Positions 9,520 through 21,014 of a stretch of 21,700 nucleotides of DNA are shown here, piece by piece (the stretch's first letter is position 1; each line of letters begins with the position of its first letter). The notes beneath the pieces were generated by a model. It made no database searches and was not told where the DNA came from. It was given only the letters and a program-made list of their open reading frames with translations. The position numbers and the translations under genes are program-made. The DNA is from a virus: positions 1 to 21,700 of IMG/VR virus record IMGVR_UViG_3300044630_006106. One strand, given 5' to 3'.

Positions 9520-10602
9520 ATGAGTACAAATTTAGATAAAAAAAAAGTAGCACTTTGTACGGGAATCACGGGGCAAGATGGAAGTTACTTAGCTGAATTT
9601 CTTCTAGAAAAAGGTTATATAGTTCATGGTATAAAGAGAAGAAGTTCTTCTTTCAATACTGAAAGAATAGATTATCTTTATGAATCTACAAGAGAATCCA
9701 AAAACTTTCATTTACATTATGGTGATTTGACTGACTCGACCAATTTAATTAGAATAATACAAGAAGTTCAACCAGATGAAATCTATAATTTAGCCGCACA
9801 ATCTCATGTTAAAGTGAGTTTTGAAACTCCGGAATATACTGCAAATGCTGATGGTATAGGAACTCTTAGAATTTTAGAAGCTATTAGAATCTTGAATCTT
9901 CAAAATAAAACAAAATTTTATCAAGCATCAACTTCTGAAATGTTTGGCTTAGTTCAAGAAGTGCCTCAAAAAGAAACAACTCCTTTTTATCCAAGAAGTC
10001 CATATGGTGTAGCTAAACTTTATGCACATTGGATTACTGTTAATTATAGAGAGGCTTATGGAATATTTGCTTGTTCTGGAATACTTTTCAATCATGAAAG
10101 TCCAGTTAGGGGTGAAACATTCGTAACAAGAAAGATTACACAAGCTGTTGCTAAAATTAAATTAGGAATTCAAGATAAATTATTAATTGGTAATCTTGAT
10201 GCTGAAAGAGATTGGGGACATGCTAAAGATTATGTTGAGGGTATGTGGTTAATGATGCAACAAGATACACCAGAAGACTATGTTCTCTCAACTGGTACAA
10301 AAATTTCAGTTAGAGAATTTTGCACCATGGCTTTTAACTTTCTTGATATTCAAATCGATTGGATTGGTTCAGGAAAAGATGAAAGGGGTATAGATAAAAA
10401 AACTGGAAAAGTAATAGTTGAGATAGACACTGAATACTTTAGGCCAACAGAAGTAGATCAACTACTTGGTGATTCAACTAAAGCTAGAACAAAATTGGGA
10501 TGGATACCTAAATATACAGTCGAAGAATTGTGTAAGGAAATGGTTTATTCGGATTTTGAAAAAATATCAAAAAAACATCTTGAAAATGAAAAAAGATTCT
10601 AA
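9520..10602 (+). CDS. gmd: GDP-mannose 4,6-dehydratase
   Basis: This 360-residue SDR-family enzyme converts GDP-D-mannose to GDP-4-keto-6-deoxymannose, the first committed step to GDP-L-fucose. Visible motifs: the NADP-binding loop TGITGQDG (14-21), the R-R-S-S motif (40-43), the catalytic T-S-E (138-140) and Y-G-V-A-K (162-166) giving the Tyr/Lys pair, and the N-H-E-S-P-R-G substrate loop. Length is close to bacterial Gmd (about 370), and nothing essential is missing. It opens an accessory operon; the next gene, GDP-L-fucose synthase, starts 17 bases before this stop. A TATATAAAAG element lies 25 bases before the ATG. Gmd/Fcl pairs are known in some large phages, cyanophages for example. The product may feed glycosylation of a virion or host surface structure, but no fucosyltransferase is visible here. 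Confidence 0.95.
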
Positions 10603-11539
10603 AATATTTGTTGCTGGTCATAGAGGTATGGTTGGATCAGCTATACTAAGAAAATTAAAATCTGAAGGATATACCAATATTGTGACTAAATCAAAAAAAG
10701 AATTAGATCTAACTAATCAATTTCAAGTCAATCATTTTTTTCACTTTGAGAGACCAGAATATGTTTTTCTTGCAGCAGCGAAGGTTGGTGGTATCAAGGC
10801 TAACAGTGATTTTAAGGCAGATTTTATTTATCAAAATCTCGCGATTCAAACGAATATTATTAACGCATCATATCAGACAGGAGTAAAAAAATTAATGTTT
10901 TTGGGTTCCTCATGTATTTACCCTAAAATGGCACCACAGCCTTTAAAGGAGGAATATTTATTGAGTGGTTATTTAGAGACAAGTAATGATGCTTATGCAA
11001 TTGCAAAAATTGCTGGAATAAAAATGTGTCAAAGTTTCAATCAACAGTATGGTACAAATTTTATTTCAGTTATGCCAACTAATTTGTATGGTCCTGGTGA
11101 TAATTATGATTTACAATCATCACACGTTTTACCAGCTCTTATTAGAAAATTTCATGAAGCAAAAAGTAATGGAGATTCCGAGGTTGTTATATGGGGCAGT
11201 GGAAATCCTATGCGTGAATTTTTATATGTCGAGGATTTAGCTGAGGCTTGTGTTTATTTAATGTTAAATTACAATGAGTCTGAAATTGTTAATATTGGAA
11301 CTGGTGAAGATATTTCAATTAAAGATTTAGCATTAATGATCAGAGACGTCATTGGGTTCGCTGGTCAAATTATTTATGATTCTTCTAAACCAGATGGTAC
11401 TCCTCGTAAACTTTTAGATGTTTCTAAAATACATGAGTTAGGTTGGTCACATAAGACTGACTTGAAAAGGGGAATTGAATTAACTTATAAACATTTTTTA
11501 AATGAATCGTTGTTATTTCCAGAGATGGGAAGAATCTGA
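10586..11539 (+). CDS. fcl: GDP-L-fucose synthase (epimerase/reductase)
   Basis: This enzyme turns the Gmd product into GDP-L-fucose by 3,5-epimerisation and NADPH reduction. The frame is open from 10466, but the reading frame before 10586 lies inside gmd and does not resemble Fcl. ATG 10586 gives [17 protein letters not shown], the normal family start, and 317 residues (family about 310-320). Motifs: G-H-R-G-M-V-G nucleotide loop (11-17), the [10 protein letters not shown] strand (61-70), S-S-C-I-Y-P (108-113) with the catalytic Ser/Cys, and Y-A-I-A-K (137-141) with the Tyr/Lys pair. The gene overlaps gmd by 17 bases and the following gene by 38, so it is probably translationally coupled. 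The last dozen residues ([12 protein letters not shown]) are encoded in the overlap and look like a short non-family tail. Confidence 0.95.
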
Positions 11540-13388: not shown

Positions 13389-13703
13389 ATGAAACATTTA
13401 CAAAAATTTGAAGATCTTGATTACAAATCTAAGTTAGCAGCTGAAACTAAGCTAAGACAAGATTTTGAAAAATCTGAAGATGAAAAAATCGAACAAAGAA
13501 GAAAAGAAACTTCGGGTAGATATTTACCAGAATTAGAAGCTGGTAGTAAGAAAAGACAATTATCTTCTCAAGAGGAAGATGAAAGAAGAGAGATAGTTCA
13601 GAAAGTAATCGATGGTTTAGTTGCCGATTTGAATAATAATCCAGGATATCAATCTTTCAAAGAAGAGTTATTGACATTCTTAGGAGAATTTCCTAAGGAG
13701 TAA
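13389..13703 (+). CDS. Small highly charged protein, possible prohead core component
   Basis: This 104-residue protein is dominated by Glu, Lys, Arg and Asp and is almost certainly helical. The middle (about residues 24-77) is very polar, and the C-terminus (YQSFKEELLTFLGEF) is amphipathic. It has its own TATATACTCT promoter element 23 bases before the ATG and may be closed by a weak hairpin. It lies two genes upstream of the portal. In T4 small charged core proteins (gp67, gp68) flank the portal gene, so a prohead core role is plausible, but there is no direct sequence match. The N-terminus MKHLQKFE has the Lys/Phe/Glu composition of short head-targeting leaders; I see no convincing (I/L)-x-E cleavage site just after it. 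Confidence 0.7.
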   Translation: MKHLQKFEDLDYKSKLAAETKLRQDFEKSEDEKIEQRRKETSGRYLPELEAGSKKRQLSSQEEDERREIVQKVIDGLVADLNNNPGYQSFKEELLTFLGEFPKE

Positions 13704-13757: not shown

Positions 13758-14492
13758 ATGATTAGTCAAAAAAAATGTAGTAAGTGTGATACTATAAAGG
13801 ATTTAGATTTATTTAACAGAGATAAATCATCTAAAGATGGTCGTAGAACTAATTGTAAAGAGTGTAGTAAATTATATAGGGAAAATAATAGAGAGAATGC
13901 AAAAGAGTATAGGAAAACTATAAAGGAGAAAAGAAGTGAAATTTTTAAGTCCTGGTATTTAGAAAACAAAAACATAAAAAAACAAATTAATAAGGATTAT
14001 TACGATAATAATAAGTTGAAAGTTAAGGAAAAAGCTTCTGAATATTATGAAAATAATAAAGATAGGAAGTTAGAATATCAGAAAAAGTATCAGAGTGAAA
14101 ACAAAGACAAAAGGAATAAACAATTATCTGAAAGGCGTCAGAATGATTCCACATTCAGGTTAGTTACTAATATTAGGAATTTGATAAATAACTCTTTTTA
14201 TAAATCAGGATATTCCAAAAAATCTAAAACACAAGAAATATTAGGATGCTCGTATGATGAATTTAAAATTTATTTAGAGTCAAAGTTTGAAAACTGGATG
14301 ACCTGGGAAAATCGAGGTATCTATACAGGTGAGTTGAATATGGGATGGGACATTGACCATGTAATACCACTATCTAATGCTCAAAGTGAGGAAGAGATTA
14401 TTAAAATTAACCATTATACAAATTTACAGCCACTCTGTACTAAAATAAATAGAGATATTAAAAAAGATAAAATAGAATATGAGTTCATATAA
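13758..14492 (+). CDS. HNH endonuclease with N-terminal zinc ribbon (free-standing homing type)
   Basis: An in-frame TTG at 13746 is possible, but ATG 13758 is preferred, 24 bases after the TATATACC element. The 244-residue protein opens with a Cys4 zinc ribbon (C7, C10, C33, C36; K-C-S-K-C-D-T-I and N-C-K-E-C). A long Lys/Asn/Tyr-rich helical linker follows, then an HNH nuclease domain: W-D-I-D-H-V-I-P-L-S (197-206, with D200-H201), N-L-Q-P-L-C (222-227) and N-R-D-I-K-K-D-K. The order matches phage HNH homing endonucleases that cut intronless cognate loci and spread by repair. It sits directly before the portal gene and overlaps its start by 14 bases, so portal expression may depend on the promoter in front of this gene. 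Lys/Asn-rich composition differs from the neighbouring structural genes. Confidence 0.9.
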   Translation: MISQKKCSKCDTIKDLDLFNRDKSSKDGRRTNCKECSKLYRENNRENAKEYRKTIKEKRSEIFKSWYLENKNIKKQINKDYYDNNKLKVKEKASEYYENNKDRKLEYQKKYQSENKDKRNKQLSERRQNDSTFRLVTNIRNLINNSFYKSGYSKKSKTQEILGCSYDEFKIYLESKFENWMTWENRGIYTGELNMGWDIDHVIPLSNAQSEEEIIKINHYTNLQPLCTKINRDIKKDKIEYEFI

Positions 14493-16197
14493 TCCGTTAA
14501 ATAACCAGGGACAATTTCAATATAATACGAATTCTGCTGTGGAAAATCGTGGTTTATTCTCTAGAATATTGAGGAATTTATCGACTTGGGGTATGAATTA
14601 TGATGATATGATCATGCGTAATCAAGTTGGTGTTGGTATTAATGAGGATCCATATTCACAACAAGGAAATTCAATGTACGATTTCTTTTCTCGCCGCGCA
14701 GTTGCATCAATTTTAAACAGAAAGTCAATACCTTATCTTGACCGTTCATATGCTGATAAAAGAAGAATTTTAAGAGAATATTCTATTAAAGATGAAATTA
14801 GAGATTTTATCTCAACTGTTTGTGATGAATGTATCATTTATTCAGAAAAAGATTTTTGCTCTCCAAGACAACTACCAACTGAATTTACACAAGATATAAA
14901 AGATAAATATCAAGAATATTTTGAAAAGATTTATAACAGATATGGATTTGCTGATTCAGTAAGTGCGTGGCAGTTGATGAAAGATTTTATTATCGATGGT
15001 TATGTGGCTATGGAAATTATTTGGGATGATAAGAAAAAGAATATTATTGGATTTAATCGTCTTCGTCCTGAAACTTTAGTTCCAGCTTTCGAGCCTTCTA
15101 TTGGTCATCTTTGGATTCAATACCCAGAAGATCCACAATTAAGAAGAATATTCTTAGATTCTCAAATTATTTTTATCTCTTATTCTTCTCAGAACGATTA
15201 TTCTGAAACCTCATATGTTGAGGGTTTAATTAAACCATATAATCAGTTAAAAATTATTGAGCAAACTAAGATAATGTTTAATCTTGTTAATGCGACTCTT
15301 TATCAAAAGTTTGTTATACCAATTAAAGGATTAGGTAGACAAAGAGCGGAAGAACAAATTGGTCAACTAATTCAGGATTATTCTGAGGAAGTTGAATGGG
15401 ATGATTCGTTGGGTACTTTAAGGATAAATGGACAAAAACACCTTTCTTATAATAAACAATATTGGTTTCCTGAGGGTGATGGTGGAACTCCTAATATGGA
15501 GATTATGAATGCTGGGGCGGGTCATAATCTAAATGAGGATGACATTTTAAAATGGTTTTTTAATATTCTAAAAAGAGCTTCTAAGATTCCGATGCAAAGA
15601 TTCCAGGATGAGAATGGTGGTGGTAATGTATTTGCTGATGCTGCTGAGATTACTCGTGATGAATCAAAATTTGGAAATTTCGTAATGAGATTAAGATCCA
15701 ATTTTAAAGAATTGATGGTTAAACCACTTAAACTACAAATGTTAGTAGAATTTCCTGAATTAAAGGATGATGAAAGGTTTATGAATGAAGTAGATATTCA
15801 ATTTCTTTCTAATCAATTATTTGAAGAGTGGAAAAAATTAGGCAATCTATCTAAAAAGGCTGAGATTCTTGGAACTCTTAATGGAATTCAAAAAGCTGAT
15901 GGCCAACCTTATTTTCATATTGAATATTTAATAGACCATGTATTGAAATTGACACCTGAGGAGAAAGAAGAAAATAAAAAATATTGGTTAAAAGATGGTG
16001 CTGGTGCGGGTGGTGCTGAAGGTGTTGAAGGTGGTGCTGAAGGTGGTGGAATGGAAGCTGGTGGTGAAATGGGTGGTGCTCAAGCCGCTCCAGAAGGTGG
16101 TGCTCAAACTACACCGGAAGCTCCAGCAGGTGGTGAAACCGAAGCTGGTGGAGAATCTGGAGGTGGAGAAGCTGGCGGCGACGAATTTGAATTTTAG
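14479..16197 (+). CDS. 20: Portal vertex protein, T4 gp20-like
   Basis: This 572-residue protein matches T4 gp20 (524 residues) through the stretch Y-W-F-P-E-G-D-G-G-T-P-N-M-E, then D-D-I-L-K-W-F-F-N-I-L-K-R-A-S-K-I-P-M-Q-R-F and A-A-E-I-T-R-D-E-S-K-F; gp20 has YWLQRRDG...WFRQALYMALRVPLSRI and SITRDELTFAKF. Twelve copies form the ring through which DNA enters and leaves the head. The last 65 residues (from about 506) are a Gly/Ala/Glu low-complexity tail ending D-E-F-E-F; T4 gp20 also ends acidic with a Phe (E-D-F) but has no Gly-rich tail. ATG 14479 overlaps the HNH stop by 14 bases. No TATATA element sits directly in front; an AAATAAATA stretch about 30 bases upstream is a weak alternative. 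The stop overlaps the convergent minus-strand gene. Confidence 0.93.
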   Translation: MSSYNPLNNQGQFQYNTNSAVENRGLFSRILRNLSTWGMNYDDMIMRNQVGVGINEDPYSQQGNSMYDFFSRRAVASILNRKSIPYLDRSYADKRRILREYSIKDEIRDFISTVCDECIIYSEKDFCSPRQLPTEFTQDIKDKYQEYFEKIYNRYGFADSVSAWQLMKDFIIDGYVAMEIIWDDKKKNIIGFNRLRPETLVPAFEPSIGHLWIQYPEDPQLRRIFLDSQIIFISYSSQNDYSETSYVEGLIKPYNQLKIIEQTKIMFNLVNATLYQKFVIPIKGLGRQRAEEQIGQLIQDYSEEVEWDDSLGTLRINGQKHLSYNKQYWFPEGDGGTPNMEIMNAGAGHNLNEDDILKWFFNILKRASKIPMQRFQDENGGGNVFADAAEITRDESKFGNFVMRLRSNFKELMVKPLKLQMLVEFPELKDDERFMNEVDIQFLSNQLFEEWKKLGNLSKKAEILGTLNGIQKADGQPYFHIEYLIDHVLKLTPEEKEENKKYWLKDGAGAGGAEGVEGGAEGGGMEAGGEMGGAQAAPEGGAQTTPEAPAGGETEAGGESGGGEAGGDEFEF

Positions 16198-17135: not shown

Positions 17136-19238
17136 ATGAAATCAGTACTAATTGTAGAAAACTCAACTAACTCATTATCACTTAATGAGAATAACAGTCA
17201 GAAGGATCAATTCATATTGGGTGGTATTTTCACTGAGTTCGATATTAAAAATAGGAACGAAAGAGTTTACACAGCCGATAGATTTATTCCTTGTTTAAAT
17301 GAATTAAACGAAAGGATTACAAATCTTGGTGTTGTTTATGGTGAATTCGACCATCCCGATGTTTTCGACACTTCTCTTTCAAGAGCATCTCACATTGTGA
17401 GAAGTGCTTCTTTTGTTAAAGAAAGTAACAGAATAGAAGGTGAAATTAGACTTCTCAACACATACTGGGGAAAAGAAGCTAAAGCTTTGGTCAACGATGG
17501 TTGTCCTATTTTCGTTTCTTCTCGTGCTGCTGGTGTTACAGAGGCTGATGGAACGGTTACATTGAAAAAATTATTCACATATGATATCGTAGCAGATCCT
17601 GGTTTTTCTTCTGCCAAAATGACTGTAAAGACTCTTAACGAATCTTTAGGTTATAAAAATCCGAAGTCAAACTTTAGAATTTACGAGATGTCTGATGAAT
17701 CAAAAATTAACGAACTATTTAACATGAACGCTAACGATTTCGTAACGAAAAAACAATTGACCGATTACTCAAAATACTTAGTAAATGAGTTGGCTTCTAC
17801 AAAGAAGACTGTAACATCGGCTCTTTCTAAAGGTAACTTAAATCCTAAGAAGTTAGAACAACTTCTTGAATATTATGAAGATTTAAATAAAAATAACTCA
17901 CAAATTGTTAAGTATCTTGATTACTTAGCAGAAAAAGTACAAGTTGTAGTTAATGAGAATACTTCTCTTAAATCTACTACTGAGAAACTTATCAAACACA
18001 ATGATTATTTAGCTGAAAATCTTGAAAAGGCTATCAATTATTCTGAGTATATCGCTGAGAATCTTGATAAAAACATCGAATACTCTGAGTATATCGCTGA
18101 AAATCTTGACAAGAACATTTCTTACGCTGAATATATCGCTGAAAATCTTGACAAATCAATTTCTTATGGTGAATACTTAGCTGAGAATCTTGACAAGAAC
18201 ATTGCTTACTCTGAATATTTAGCTGAGAATCTTGACAAGAACATTGCTTATGCTGAATATATCGCAGAAAACTTAGACAAATCTATCTCTTACGGAGAAT
18301 ATTTAGCAGAACACTTAGATAACTCTATTGCTTACTCTGAGTATCTTGCTGAACACGTAGAAGGTAATATTGCATACTCTGAATATATCGCTGAGAATCT
18401 TGATGATAACATCGCTTACTCTGAATATATCGCAGAAAACTTAGACAAATCTATTTCATACTCTGGACTTATCGCTGAAAGATTGAATAGTGGAAAACTA
18501 TTAGAGTCTTATGGTGAATCAGAAACTTTCCCTACTTTAAAAGCTGCAGGTTTTGAAGCTGTAGAAGAAGAGGAAGAAGAAGAAAAATCTTGGAATGATG
18601 AAATGGAAGCTCCAGCTCATGAAGAAACTCCTGAAGAAGAAGTTTGTGGTCCAATGGCTCACGAAGAAGATGAGGAAGAAACTCAAGAAGAAGAATCTTA
18701 TGAAGTTTCTGGAGAGTCTGATACTGAATTATCACAATCTATTGATAAATTGATCGAAGAAGCTAAAAAACGTAAAGCTACTGAAACATCCGATCTACAT
18801 TTTTTGAAGTTTTTAAACAAATCTCAGGTTGATAGTTTCTACAATCTTACAAACGAAGAACAAGAAACTGTTAAACTTTACATAAACGAAAAAAGTTTCT
18901 TCACTACATCTGATGTATTGAAGTTAATCTCTGAGGCCTTGAGTGCTAAAAACGAAACTCTTGAAGAAAGAGTAATCAGATTGATGCCTGAAAACATCAA
19001 GCCAATCTGGAACCAACTTAATGAGAGTGCTAGAAAATCTATCCTTTCACAGGCTAGACTTTACCCATCTGATGTTATGAAAACTGAATCTCAGTTAGAA
19101 CATTTCTGGATGACTAGAAATCTTAAAAAGAATGAATCTGTTACTAAGAAATTAGTTTCACATGAAGCGTTAATTCAGGAAGATAAATTATCTGACAAAG
19201 AATTAGGAGCTATTATGGAAAGATTCAAAAACCTTTAA
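17136..19238 (+). CDS. 21: Prohead protease (gp21-like) fused to repeat-rich scaffold (gp22-like)
   Basis: The 700-residue product has four parts. Residues 25-165 are a T4 gp21-type prohead protease: N-R-N-E-R-V-Y (39-45), G-E-F-D-H-P (69-74, catalytic His73), V-S-S-R-A-A-G (127-133, catalytic Ser128 or 129) and D-I-V-A-D-P-G-F (150-157). Residues 170-287 are helical. Residues 288-455 are about twelve tandem 14-residue repeats of the type Y-S-E-Y-I-A-E-N-L-D-K-N-I-x. Residues 465-530 are extremely acidic, and 535-700 form a helical C-terminal domain. T4 encodes protease (21) and scaffold (22) separately, upstream of 23; here the single gene lies directly before the capsid gene. Each repeat holds an (I/L)-A-E site like those gp21 cleaves. 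A TATATACT element lies 26 bases before the ATG. Confidence 0.9.
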   Translation: MKSVLIVENSTNSLSLNENNSQKDQFILGGIFTEFDIKNRNERVYTADRFIPCLNELNERITNLGVVYGEFDHPDVFDTSLSRASHIVRSASFVKESNRIEGEIRLLNTYWGKEAKALVNDGCPIFVSSRAAGVTEADGTVTLKKLFTYDIVADPGFSSAKMTVKTLNESLGYKNPKSNFRIYEMSDESKINELFNMNANDFVTKKQLTDYSKYLVNELASTKKTVTSALSKGNLNPKKLEQLLEYYEDLNKNNSQIVKYLDYLAEKVQVVVNENTSLKSTTEKLIKHNDYLAENLEKAINYSEYIAENLDKNIEYSEYIAENLDKNISYAEYIAENLDKSISYGEYLAENLDKNIAYSEYLAENLDKNIAYAEYIAENLDKSISYGEYLAEHLDNSIAYSEYLAEHVEGNIAYSEYIAENLDDNIAYSEYIAENLDKSISYSGLIAERLNSGKLLESYGESETFPTLKAAGFEAVEEEEEEEKSWNDEMEAPAHEETPEEEVCGPMAHEEDEEETQEEESYEVSGESDTELSQSIDKLIEEAKKRKATETSDLHFLKFLNKSQVDSFYNLTNEEQETVKLYINEKSFFTTSDVLKLISEALSAKNETLEERVIRLMPENIKPIWNQLNESARKSILSQARLYPSDVMKTESQLEHFWMTRNLKKNESVTKKLVSHEALIQEDKLSDKELGAIMERFKNL
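17997..18500 (+). repeat. Tandem 42-bp (14-residue) in-frame repeats, about 12 copies
   Basis: Units start at residues 288, 302, 316 and so on every 14 residues to 442. Ten are near-identical and the first and last are degenerate. Third-position codon choice varies (for example atcgctgaaaatcttgac against atcgcagaaaacttagac), so the protein is better conserved than the DNA. Units 3-5 and 6-8 share the same variant order, giving a higher-order period of three units (126 bp). A related isolated unit, Y-L-D-Y-L-A-E-K, occurs earlier at residues 260-267. Confidence 0.95.
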
Positions 19239-19280: not shown

Positions 19281-21014
19281 ATGTCACACATTAGAATAGA
19301 CAAACAAAAAGCGGTTAAGAAGTGGGCTCCAGTATTGGAGAACATGGGTGTTACTGGTGATAGAGTTGAATGGTTAGCAGAATATGCTGAGTTCCACTCA
19401 ATCAATGAGAACGCTTACGCTAACGCAACTACTGCTGGTATGGGTCAAGTTTTGGCTCCAACTCCAGGATCTTTTCCAGGTCTTTTAGGTGGTGGTGCTG
19501 GATTCGGTGGTTCATCTGTAACAGGTCAATCAACAATTGGATCAGGTGATCTTGGTCAAAACTTACTTCCAGTAGCTATGAAAATTGCAGCTCAAACAAT
19601 CGGTTTAGATTTAGTAGCTGTAAAACCTACTCCAGGTCCAAAAATCGACTTACTTTATATTGATTTTCAATATGATGATTTAACAAATGGTGGTACAACT
19701 GGTCGTCCACAAGTGTTCAAAATTACTGCATCATCGTTAACCGGTGCTTTTGCATTAGCTAAAGCTGGCTTAACGACTGCTGTATCTACTGGAAATGGTA
19801 CTTTAACAACTGGTGGTATTCAAGGAACAGAAGTATTTTTTAATATAGCTACAAGTGCTCTTCCTGTTAACGCAGAGCCAACTGGTTCAAAACAAGGAGT
19901 CTTAGAATTCTTAGGTTTCTCACGTATTGACGGAGCTCCTATGTTCAAAGCATACAGACAAGCAAATGCTCAAGCTCCATACGGTGGTCTTAATACATCC
20001 CCTTATCATTTTGAGCAGACATTGAACACATTTAACCCAACTGCATCAATGGTTGATCAAATTAATTATATCGGTACTGTTGGTGTTACTGCATCAGTAA
20101 CTATCGAATTGGTATCAGCTCTTGAAGATCACCTTCCGGGATTCTCAGCTAACTGGGCATCTAACGCATCTTCAGGTGATTATCCAATGAATCGTGAAAC
20201 TGATGACAACACTTATGCTGGTGTTATCGGTCCTAAAATTTCTTCTAAATCAATCGCTGTAGGTACTATTGAAGTATCAACTGCATTGAGAAGAACTGAA
20301 ATTGAAGATATTAAGGCTAATACAGGTATGGATATCGTTCAAAAAATGGAATCTATCCTTGTCAATGAATTATCTCAAACAATTTCTAAACAAATTGTTG
20401 CTAAAATCTTCGCTCTTGGAGAACAAAACAGACAAACCGCTCCACTTCAGGCTGGATTAGGTGTAACAACTGTTGGTACAACAGCTTCTACAATCTTTGA
20501 TTTGAATACTGCTTATGTTACAATAAATGGTGGTATCGGTGGTGAGACAACTCACGCTGTTCAAAGAAAACTTATCACTAAGTTGGCACATGCTTCTAAC
20601 TTCATTGCAACAGAAGGTCGTGTTGGTCCTGCTCAATTCGCAGTAACTAATGGAGGTCTTGCAGCATCTCTTATGGATATCGCTGGTTACACAGTTAACC
20701 CAGTTAAATCTAAAATAAACGGTGCTGGTCAATTATATCCAGTAGGTACAATCGGAGATATTCAAATCTACGTTGATCCTTATATGAGATATAACGATAA
20801 CAGAATCGTACTTGGTAGAAAGAACAACCCAGACCAACCAGGTCTTATCTTCGTACCTTACTTGATGGCTCAGTCTATCTCTGTAATTTCTGAAGCTACT
20901 TTCGCTCCAAGAATGTTACTACGTTCAAGATATGCTATCGCTGATGTTGGATTCTTCCCACAAAAGCAGTATATGACTATCGTTGTAACAGACGCAAACC
21001 AATACTTGAACTAA
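19281..21014 (+). CDS. 23: Major capsid protein, T4 gp23-like
   Basis: This 577-residue protein follows the gp23 pattern: the N-terminal K-A-V-K-K-W-A-P-V-L-E (gp23: LLNKWKPLLE), then I-G-P-K-I-S-S-K-S-I-A-V, T-E-I-E-D-I-K-A-N-T-G-M-D (gp23: AQDLRAVHGMD), a Gly/Thr-rich stretch, and near the C-terminus P-G-L-I-F-V-P-Y-L-M-A and L-L-R-S-R-Y-A-I (gp23: AGIYYAPYVAL and FKTRYGI). It forms the HK97-fold hexamers of the head. A likely propeptide ends at I-N-E (41-43), matching the (I/L)-x-E rule of T4 prohead proteases; L-A-E at 32-34 is an alternative. It lies 42 bases after the protease-scaffold gene with no TATATA element in between, and a strong terminator follows. Codon choice (gct, act, ggt, ctt) suits high expression. 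Confidence 0.95.
   Translation: MSHIRIDKQKAVKKWAPVLENMGVTGDRVEWLAEYAEFHSINENAYANATTAGMGQVLAPTPGSFPGLLGGGAGFGGSSVTGQSTIGSGDLGQNLLPVAMKIAAQTIGLDLVAVKPTPGPKIDLLYIDFQYDDLTNGGTTGRPQVFKITASSLTGAFALAKAGLTTAVSTGNGTLTTGGIQGTEVFFNIATSALPVNAEPTGSKQGVLEFLGFSRIDGAPMFKAYRQANAQAPYGGLNTSPYHFEQTLNTFNPTASMVDQINYIGTVGVTASVTIELVSALEDHLPGFSANWASNASSGDYPMNRETDDNTYAGVIGPKISSKSIAVGTIEVSTALRRTEIEDIKANTGMDIVQKMESILVNELSQTISKQIVAKIFALGEQNRQTAPLQAGLGVTTVGTTASTIFDLNTAYVTINGGIGGETTHAVQRKLITKLAHASNFIATEGRVGPAQFAVTNGGLAASLMDIAGYTVNPVKSKINGAGQLYPVGTIGDIQIYVDPYMRYNDNRIVLGRKNNPDQPGLIFVPYLMAQSISVISEATFAPRMLLRSRYAIADVGFFPQKQYMTIVVTDANQYLN

Follow-up and report, generated by a model that had tools for sequence, protein, structure and literature searches.

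A fused gp21-type prohead protease and putative scaffold of huge phages with a tandem array of motifs resembling the T4 capsid-targeting sequence

Why would a prohead protease be encoded in one chain with a putative scaffold, and what could a regular ladder of predicted cleavage sites for this very protease do there? This question is raised by an intact open reading frame of 700 aa at positions 17136..19238 (+) of the window (the whole stretch of 21,700 nucleotides analyzed here), located exactly where an earlier note on this DNA had placed it. Along the chain, a gp21-type protease is followed by 12 tandem units of 14 residues each and then by an acidic stretch, and the C-terminal domain is helical. 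The gene is located between the genes for a gp20-like portal protein (14479..16197, +; PF07230, E 2e-59) and a gp23-like major capsid protein (19281..21014, +; PF07068, E 1.7e-27), and only 42 bases, without any intervening gene, separate it from the capsid ORF. In T4, the portal-to-capsid slot is occupied by the separate genes 67, 68, 21 and 22, whereas here it contains one fused gene. Note that two further ORFs of the window (9520-11539), placed between structural genes, resemble by eye GDP-mannose 4,6-dehydratase and GDP-fucose synthase and are likely involved in surface-sugar synthesis.

The fused gene and its protease domain

IMG/VR and GenBank yielded 83 distinct orthologues, each likewise a single ORF (some of the contigs are incomplete) and some of them from Mahaphage genomes of 634-735 kb, and three other IMG/VR contigs (L011-L013) match residues 1-700 with 100% identity. 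An assembly error joining two genes can therefore be ruled out, and the protease is indeed continuous with the scaffold-like chain, as the earlier note had claimed. Its contrast with T4, where genes 21 and 22 are separate, was borne out as well; the protease and the scaffold are also encoded by separate genes in 121Q, Munch and D479. The genomes of 634, 636, 642 and 735 kb were reported to be complete and to belong to the Mahaphage clade, of which the Lak phages are also part and for which Bacteroidetes hosts are predicted (PMC7162821). The clade carrying the fusion includes the largest known phages. In Lak phage MK250021 (the locus was read with genetic code 15), a fused chain of 581 aa possesses a gp21-type protease, an NE|S site, an acidic segment and a helical-looking tail, as here, but it has no 14-residue ladder.

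A protease-scaffold fusion as such is not new, since lambda C/Nu3, P2 O and herpesvirus UL26 are known examples. All three consist of an N-terminal protease and a C-terminal scaffold with self-cleavage between them, and these fusions make an extra scaffold-only product; the proteases of lambda and P2 belong to families unlike the gp21 type. To our knowledge, none of these fusions contains a tandem array of substrate motifs. The protein studied here is one chain, in which a putative scaffold follows the protease; between the two, [LI]NE|S is conserved as a predicted cleavage site.

The protease domain comprises residues 1-169 (17136..17642, +). The fusion protein matches PHROG 207 (phrog_207, "head maturation protease") with an E of 7e-29, and a profile of seven relatives compared by hhalign with gp21 of T4, D479, 121Q and Munch gave a probability of 99.2%. 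His73 (codon 17352-17354, +) lies in EFDHP, which pairs with GELNHP of T4 gp21, and Ser128/129 (codons 17517-17522, +) lie in VSSRAAG, which pairs with VSSRGLG; these residues are invariant among the orthologues. Furthermore, the three best PDB matches of the AF2 model in Foldseek are all chains of one crystal structure, that of T4 gp21 (5jbl; E 2e-5 to 4e-5, probability 1.0), the protease part of this model having modest pLDDT. The Pfam S77 family PF03420 scored 20.2 bits on the fusion protein, which is below the gathering cut-off of 27, and a search of solved structures by sequence with the fusion protein gave no match. Thus, the N-terminus is by homology a T4 gp21-type prohead protease (Peptidase S77) with the His and Ser residues that the earlier note had picked out; PHROG, profile-profile comparison and fold all agree. 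T4 gp21 shares with it the His/Ser motifs, an N-terminal L-I-x-E site and a gene position between the portal and capsid genes, but it is a protein of 212 aa without a scaffold part, whereas here 530 more residues follow the protease.

The 735-kb phage also encodes a paralogue of the protease domain that is 178 aa long (L074:1515-2051, -). In this paralogue, GEFDHP is replaced by GELGYP and VSSRAAG by FRPRAAG, i.e., it lacks both catalytic residues and is a pseudo-protease, and it ends with a DPYGEENW tag. Altogether, 100 copies of the octapeptide DPYGEE-x-W were counted in this phage (LR756501.1; L145-L181), spread over about 85-90 ORFs; 40 copies lie no more than 6 residues from the C-terminus, and the first 18 bases come in 45 different DNA versions. 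The 635-kb relative lacks this octapeptide, which looks like a proteome-wide peptide tag.

The 14-residue array and the T4 capsid-targeting sequence

Twelve 14-residue units of the form Y/H-x-x-Y/L-[IL]-A-E|N/H/R make up residues 288-455 (17997..18500, +), and TRF detects the array in the DNA with a period of 42. The Glu residues stand at 294, 308, 322 and so on to 448, every one in [IL]-A-E, and a first, separate copy of the motif, YLDYLAE266 (17913..17933, +), is retained by most aligned orthologues. The earlier note had described these positions correctly as a ladder of gp21-type sites every 14 residues plus one at 266, and the Glu is conserved in the orthologues.

The even spacing alone is a trivial outcome of tandem duplication, but the conservation of Glu exceeds chance. 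From the 83 orthologues we collected 989 units (243 distinct), with 11-13 units per orthologue and one exception with 9, in a set that includes incomplete contigs. Unit position 7 (P1) is Glu in 987 of them, while the other two, each the first unit of its array, have Gly; the entropy at this position is 0.02 bit, the next lowest positions having 0.45-0.52. Asp never occurs at position 7, although positions 3 and 10 freely swap Glu and Asp. Tyr is present at positions 1 and 4 in about 91-92% of the units (end units have His at 1 and Leu/Met at 4), position 5 is always I, L or V, and P1' is N, H or K, Asn being the commonest. Recent homogenization of the repeats is unlikely in view of the 243 distinct units and mixed synonymous codons; in the nearer orthologue set, the position-7 Glu is encoded by 245 GAA and 103 GAG. 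An i/i+4 salt bridge with Lys11 as the reason for keeping Glu was rejected, as Glu is present in all 342 units without K/R at position 11. Pfam matches over the repeats (PGEED, PSCyt2, DUF6468) were below the cut-offs and were taken as composition artefacts.

The array unit matches a known T4 signal, a likeness absent from the earlier note. T4 IPII and IPIII begin with MKTYQEFIAE|A (confirmed in the T4 records), and the unit Y-x-E-Y-[IL]-A-E aligns residue by residue with their Y-Q-E-F-I-A-E|A. In this capsid-targeting sequence (CTS), residues 4 and 7 are responsible for targeting and residues 8 and 10 for gp21 processing, and Asp at residue 10 blocks processing and leaves targeting intact (Mullaney and Black 1996, reviewed in PMC9026906). 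CTS residues 4, 7, 8 and 10 (aromatic, aromatic, aliphatic, Glu) correspond to unit positions 1, 4, 5 and 7. A DNA pattern derived from the repeats has three matches in T4, two of which are ipII and ipIII. The known cut of T4 gp23 after residue 65 (PMC9958956) follows FGSFLTE, the sole relaxed motif match in gp23; no relaxed match was present in T4 gp22, gp67, gp68 or gp21, and the CTS is reported to be absent from other core proteins (PMC9958956). Judged by these alignments, the unit is most aptly called an extended recognition motif of gp21, which T4 uses as a targeting signal as well, and the ladder is not gp22-like but a series of tandem T4-type capsid-targeting/cleavage motifs. Note that in T4 the CTS is a single N-terminal copy on a packaged cargo protein, whereas here there are about 12 tandem internal copies, with N-terminal copies on many other ORFs.

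The conserved aromatic residues, which in T4 do the targeting, would suit an array that only docks: the repeats would bind tagged cargo or the protease's own active site, either keeping the enzyme inactive or recruiting proteins, and would be removed whole. Dozens of ORFs with an N-terminal tag (see below) and four further small ORFs that contain the 14-residue repeat 2-4 times fit with this as well. But docking would tolerate Asp at the Glu position, as the T4 mutant does (PMC9026906), and Asp was never seen there in 989 units; we regard docking without cleavage as quite improbable.

Cleavage at every unit is likewise not free of objections. The P1' residues of the array are N/H/K vs mostly S/A in the tags, Val, which the L/I-x-E rule of T4 does not cover, occupies P3 in 97 of the 989 units, and the AF2 model predicts one continuous helix (residues 237-447, including the array), which the protease would need to unwind. 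In a 462-kb relative (L005; read by eye), the 14-residue register is kept over about 11 units, only about 6 of which have Glu. The continuous helix, the register kept in L005 in units without Glu and the unlike P1' would also be compatible with a structural ruler, i.e., a rigid helical rod that sets the size or spacing of the core, with Glu serving rod packing and with only the chain ends and the capsid protein being cut. This appears unlikely: Glu is the most constant residue of the unit though it lies off the hydrophobic helix face, it is replaced neither by Asp nor by Gln, the degenerate last unit loses Tyr4 yet retains [IL]-x-E, and the motif equals the known gp21 substrate motif. Cleavage of the ladder is suggested by the invariance of Glu together with the T4 precedent.

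The putative scaffold and the predicted sites outside the array

The array is followed by a variable acidic segment (residues 456-527; 18501..18716, +), which is predicted to be disordered (pLDDT <50 over 441-529) and aligns poorly among the orthologues, and by a C-terminal domain (residues 528-700; 18717..19235, +) with helices in the model. The full-chain prediction proposed in the earlier note has thus given a gp21 fold at the N-terminus, the continuous helix and a helical C-terminus. We infer that the C-terminal part is an internal head scaffold from the gene position, the predicted helical form and the lack of another candidate in the slot.

The scaffold part resembles T4 gp22 in its gene position before the capsid gene, in being helical and in its richness in [IL]-x-E (16 in gp22), and gp21 cleaves gp22 to fragments (PMC9026906). 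But gp22 is encoded by a separate gene and has neither a tandem unit nor a CTS-type motif, and hhalign comparison of the scaffold region with the four gp22 sequences used gave a probability of 1.1% over 22 columns; the gp22 relatives that the earlier note had proposed to search for thus have no detectable likeness to it in this comparison. With the last 150 residues, tblastn found matches in huge-phage relatives only, and no PHROG or Pfam family convincingly covers residues 456-700. The missing gp22 homology and family assignment would be expected if an unrelated virion protein, which is no scaffold, had been joined to the protease gene. We consider this very improbable, as the long fused chain is common to the clade, a similar fused tail is present in Lak phages, and the C-terminal part occupies the gp22 slot, where the capsid gene is its immediate neighbour.

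Three further cuts are predicted. The first, I6-V7-E8|N9 (17151..17159, +), is the counterpart of LIE9 in T4 gp21, for which N-terminal self-cleavage has a precedent (PMC9026906, PMC9958956); LI[VI]E|N is present in 82 of the 83 orthologues. The second, L167-N168-E169|S170 (17634..17642, +), would release the protease from the scaffold, and [LI]NE|S is likewise conserved in 82 of 83. The third would remove the capsid propeptide at INE43|N44 (site region 19371-19409, +), within W[LM][AS]EYAExHx[IM][NH]E|N, which is conserved in the capsid protein; its P1' Asn is the commonest P1' of the ladder.

The fusion may couple the protease dose to the scaffold, as the earlier note proposed. T4 contains about 580 copies of gp22 vs about 55 of gp21 (PMC9958956), and a 1:1 fusion would be very protease-rich in comparison, unless a scaffold-only product exists. 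A nested start at Met185 was rejected for lack of conservation. Most of the orthologues inspected share a Met near residue 196-197; it has no Shine-Dalgarno sequence, which is also absent from other genes of the window, and no sign of initiation was found there. In the same region, most relatives carry a 38-nt coding block, TTTAGGATATATGAAATGTCCGATGAGTCAAAAATAAA, at about codons 180-192 (window 17673-17711), which has been lost in the window's own sublineage. Synonymous codons of this block are kept between the 635-kb and 735-kb phages, with 3 mismatches, and it may be a DNA or RNA element that overlaps the coding sequence; a repeated promoter was rejected, as the block is confined to the fusion gene in the two genomes carrying it.

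N-terminal tags and a possible mechanism

The motif of the array was also searched for at the N-termini of other proteins, using greedy ATG ORFs of four huge phages and the strict pattern [YFW]x[EDNQ][YFW][ILVM]xE starting within the first 14 residues. The four genomes have 36, 20, 17 and 21 tagged ORFs vs 1.0, 1.4, 1.0 and 0.5 expected from the internal rates, i.e., a 14-44-fold excess, and T4 has 3 vs 0.1 expected; in the scanned part of 121Q none was found. Versions of the motif with Asp or Asn/Gln are near background, save for Asp in one genome (3 vs 0.3). The consensus of the tag is about I-K-K-[YF]-x-[ED]-F-[IL]-N-E|[SA], with P1' mostly S/A. Among the tagged ORFs are one T4-type RNA ligase, one DHH match below the cut-off and one PPK2. 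As the array motif also tags the N-termini of many other proteins, a role in recruitment as well as in destruction is suggested. We found no paper describing a capsid-targeting code in huge phages, subscription journals being mostly outside the search.

One tagged ORF of the 635-kb phage (L207:8257-9573, -; 438 aa, tag MKLKKYKQFIKES) has 2'-5' RNA ligase/Acb1-like and RNase T-type exonuclease domains and is a candidate for an injected counter-defence enzyme. A second N-terminal pattern, MK[YH][LI]xx[FY][NED][ESDN], is present in 46, 21 and 17 ORFs of LR745206.1 (635 kb), LR756504.1 and LR756500.1, respectively, vs about 0.5 expected, and the ORF 13389-13703 of the window starts with it, too (MKHLQKFED); this pattern may be the capsid-targeting tag in a shorter form.

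We consider it fairly probable that the fusion is protease and scaffold in one, with a rod of arrayed capsid-targeting/cleavage motifs that is cut once assembly is complete. The fused chains would assemble together in the prohead core, with the rod helices packed via their aromatic/aliphatic face, and head proteins with one N-terminal copy of the motif might enter the core by making these contacts, too. When the prohead is complete, the protease would free itself at IVE8|N and LNE169|S and then remove the propeptides of the capsid protein and the cargo, and the rod would be cut after the invariant Glu to peptides of about 14 residues, which would leave before DNA packaging. This reading is favoured by the 83 orthologues with the fused gene in the gp21-gp22 slot, next to the capsid gene, and by the conservation of the self-cleavage and capsid sites; the missing homology to gp22 and the Lak fusion without a ladder count against it. 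More doubtful, and offered only tentatively, is a proteome-wide capsid-import code of Mahaphages, in which dozens of tagged proteins (predicted Acb1-like, RNA-ligase and PPK2 among them) would dock like-to-like on the array, be freed when the fused protease cuts every copy, and be injected with the DNA.

The sorting of proteins into the T4 core and the structure of this core are still called mysterious and unresolved, respectively (PMC9958956). If our reading is true, a scaffold built of tandem targeting motifs would be a concrete and testable answer to the sorting problem, in which like binds like and one kind of cut frees all, and it would provide a natural design for a scaffold that is dismantled at set steps. 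The sequence rule would then predict which of the hundreds of unknown huge-phage proteins are packaged or injected, including candidate counter-defence enzymes.
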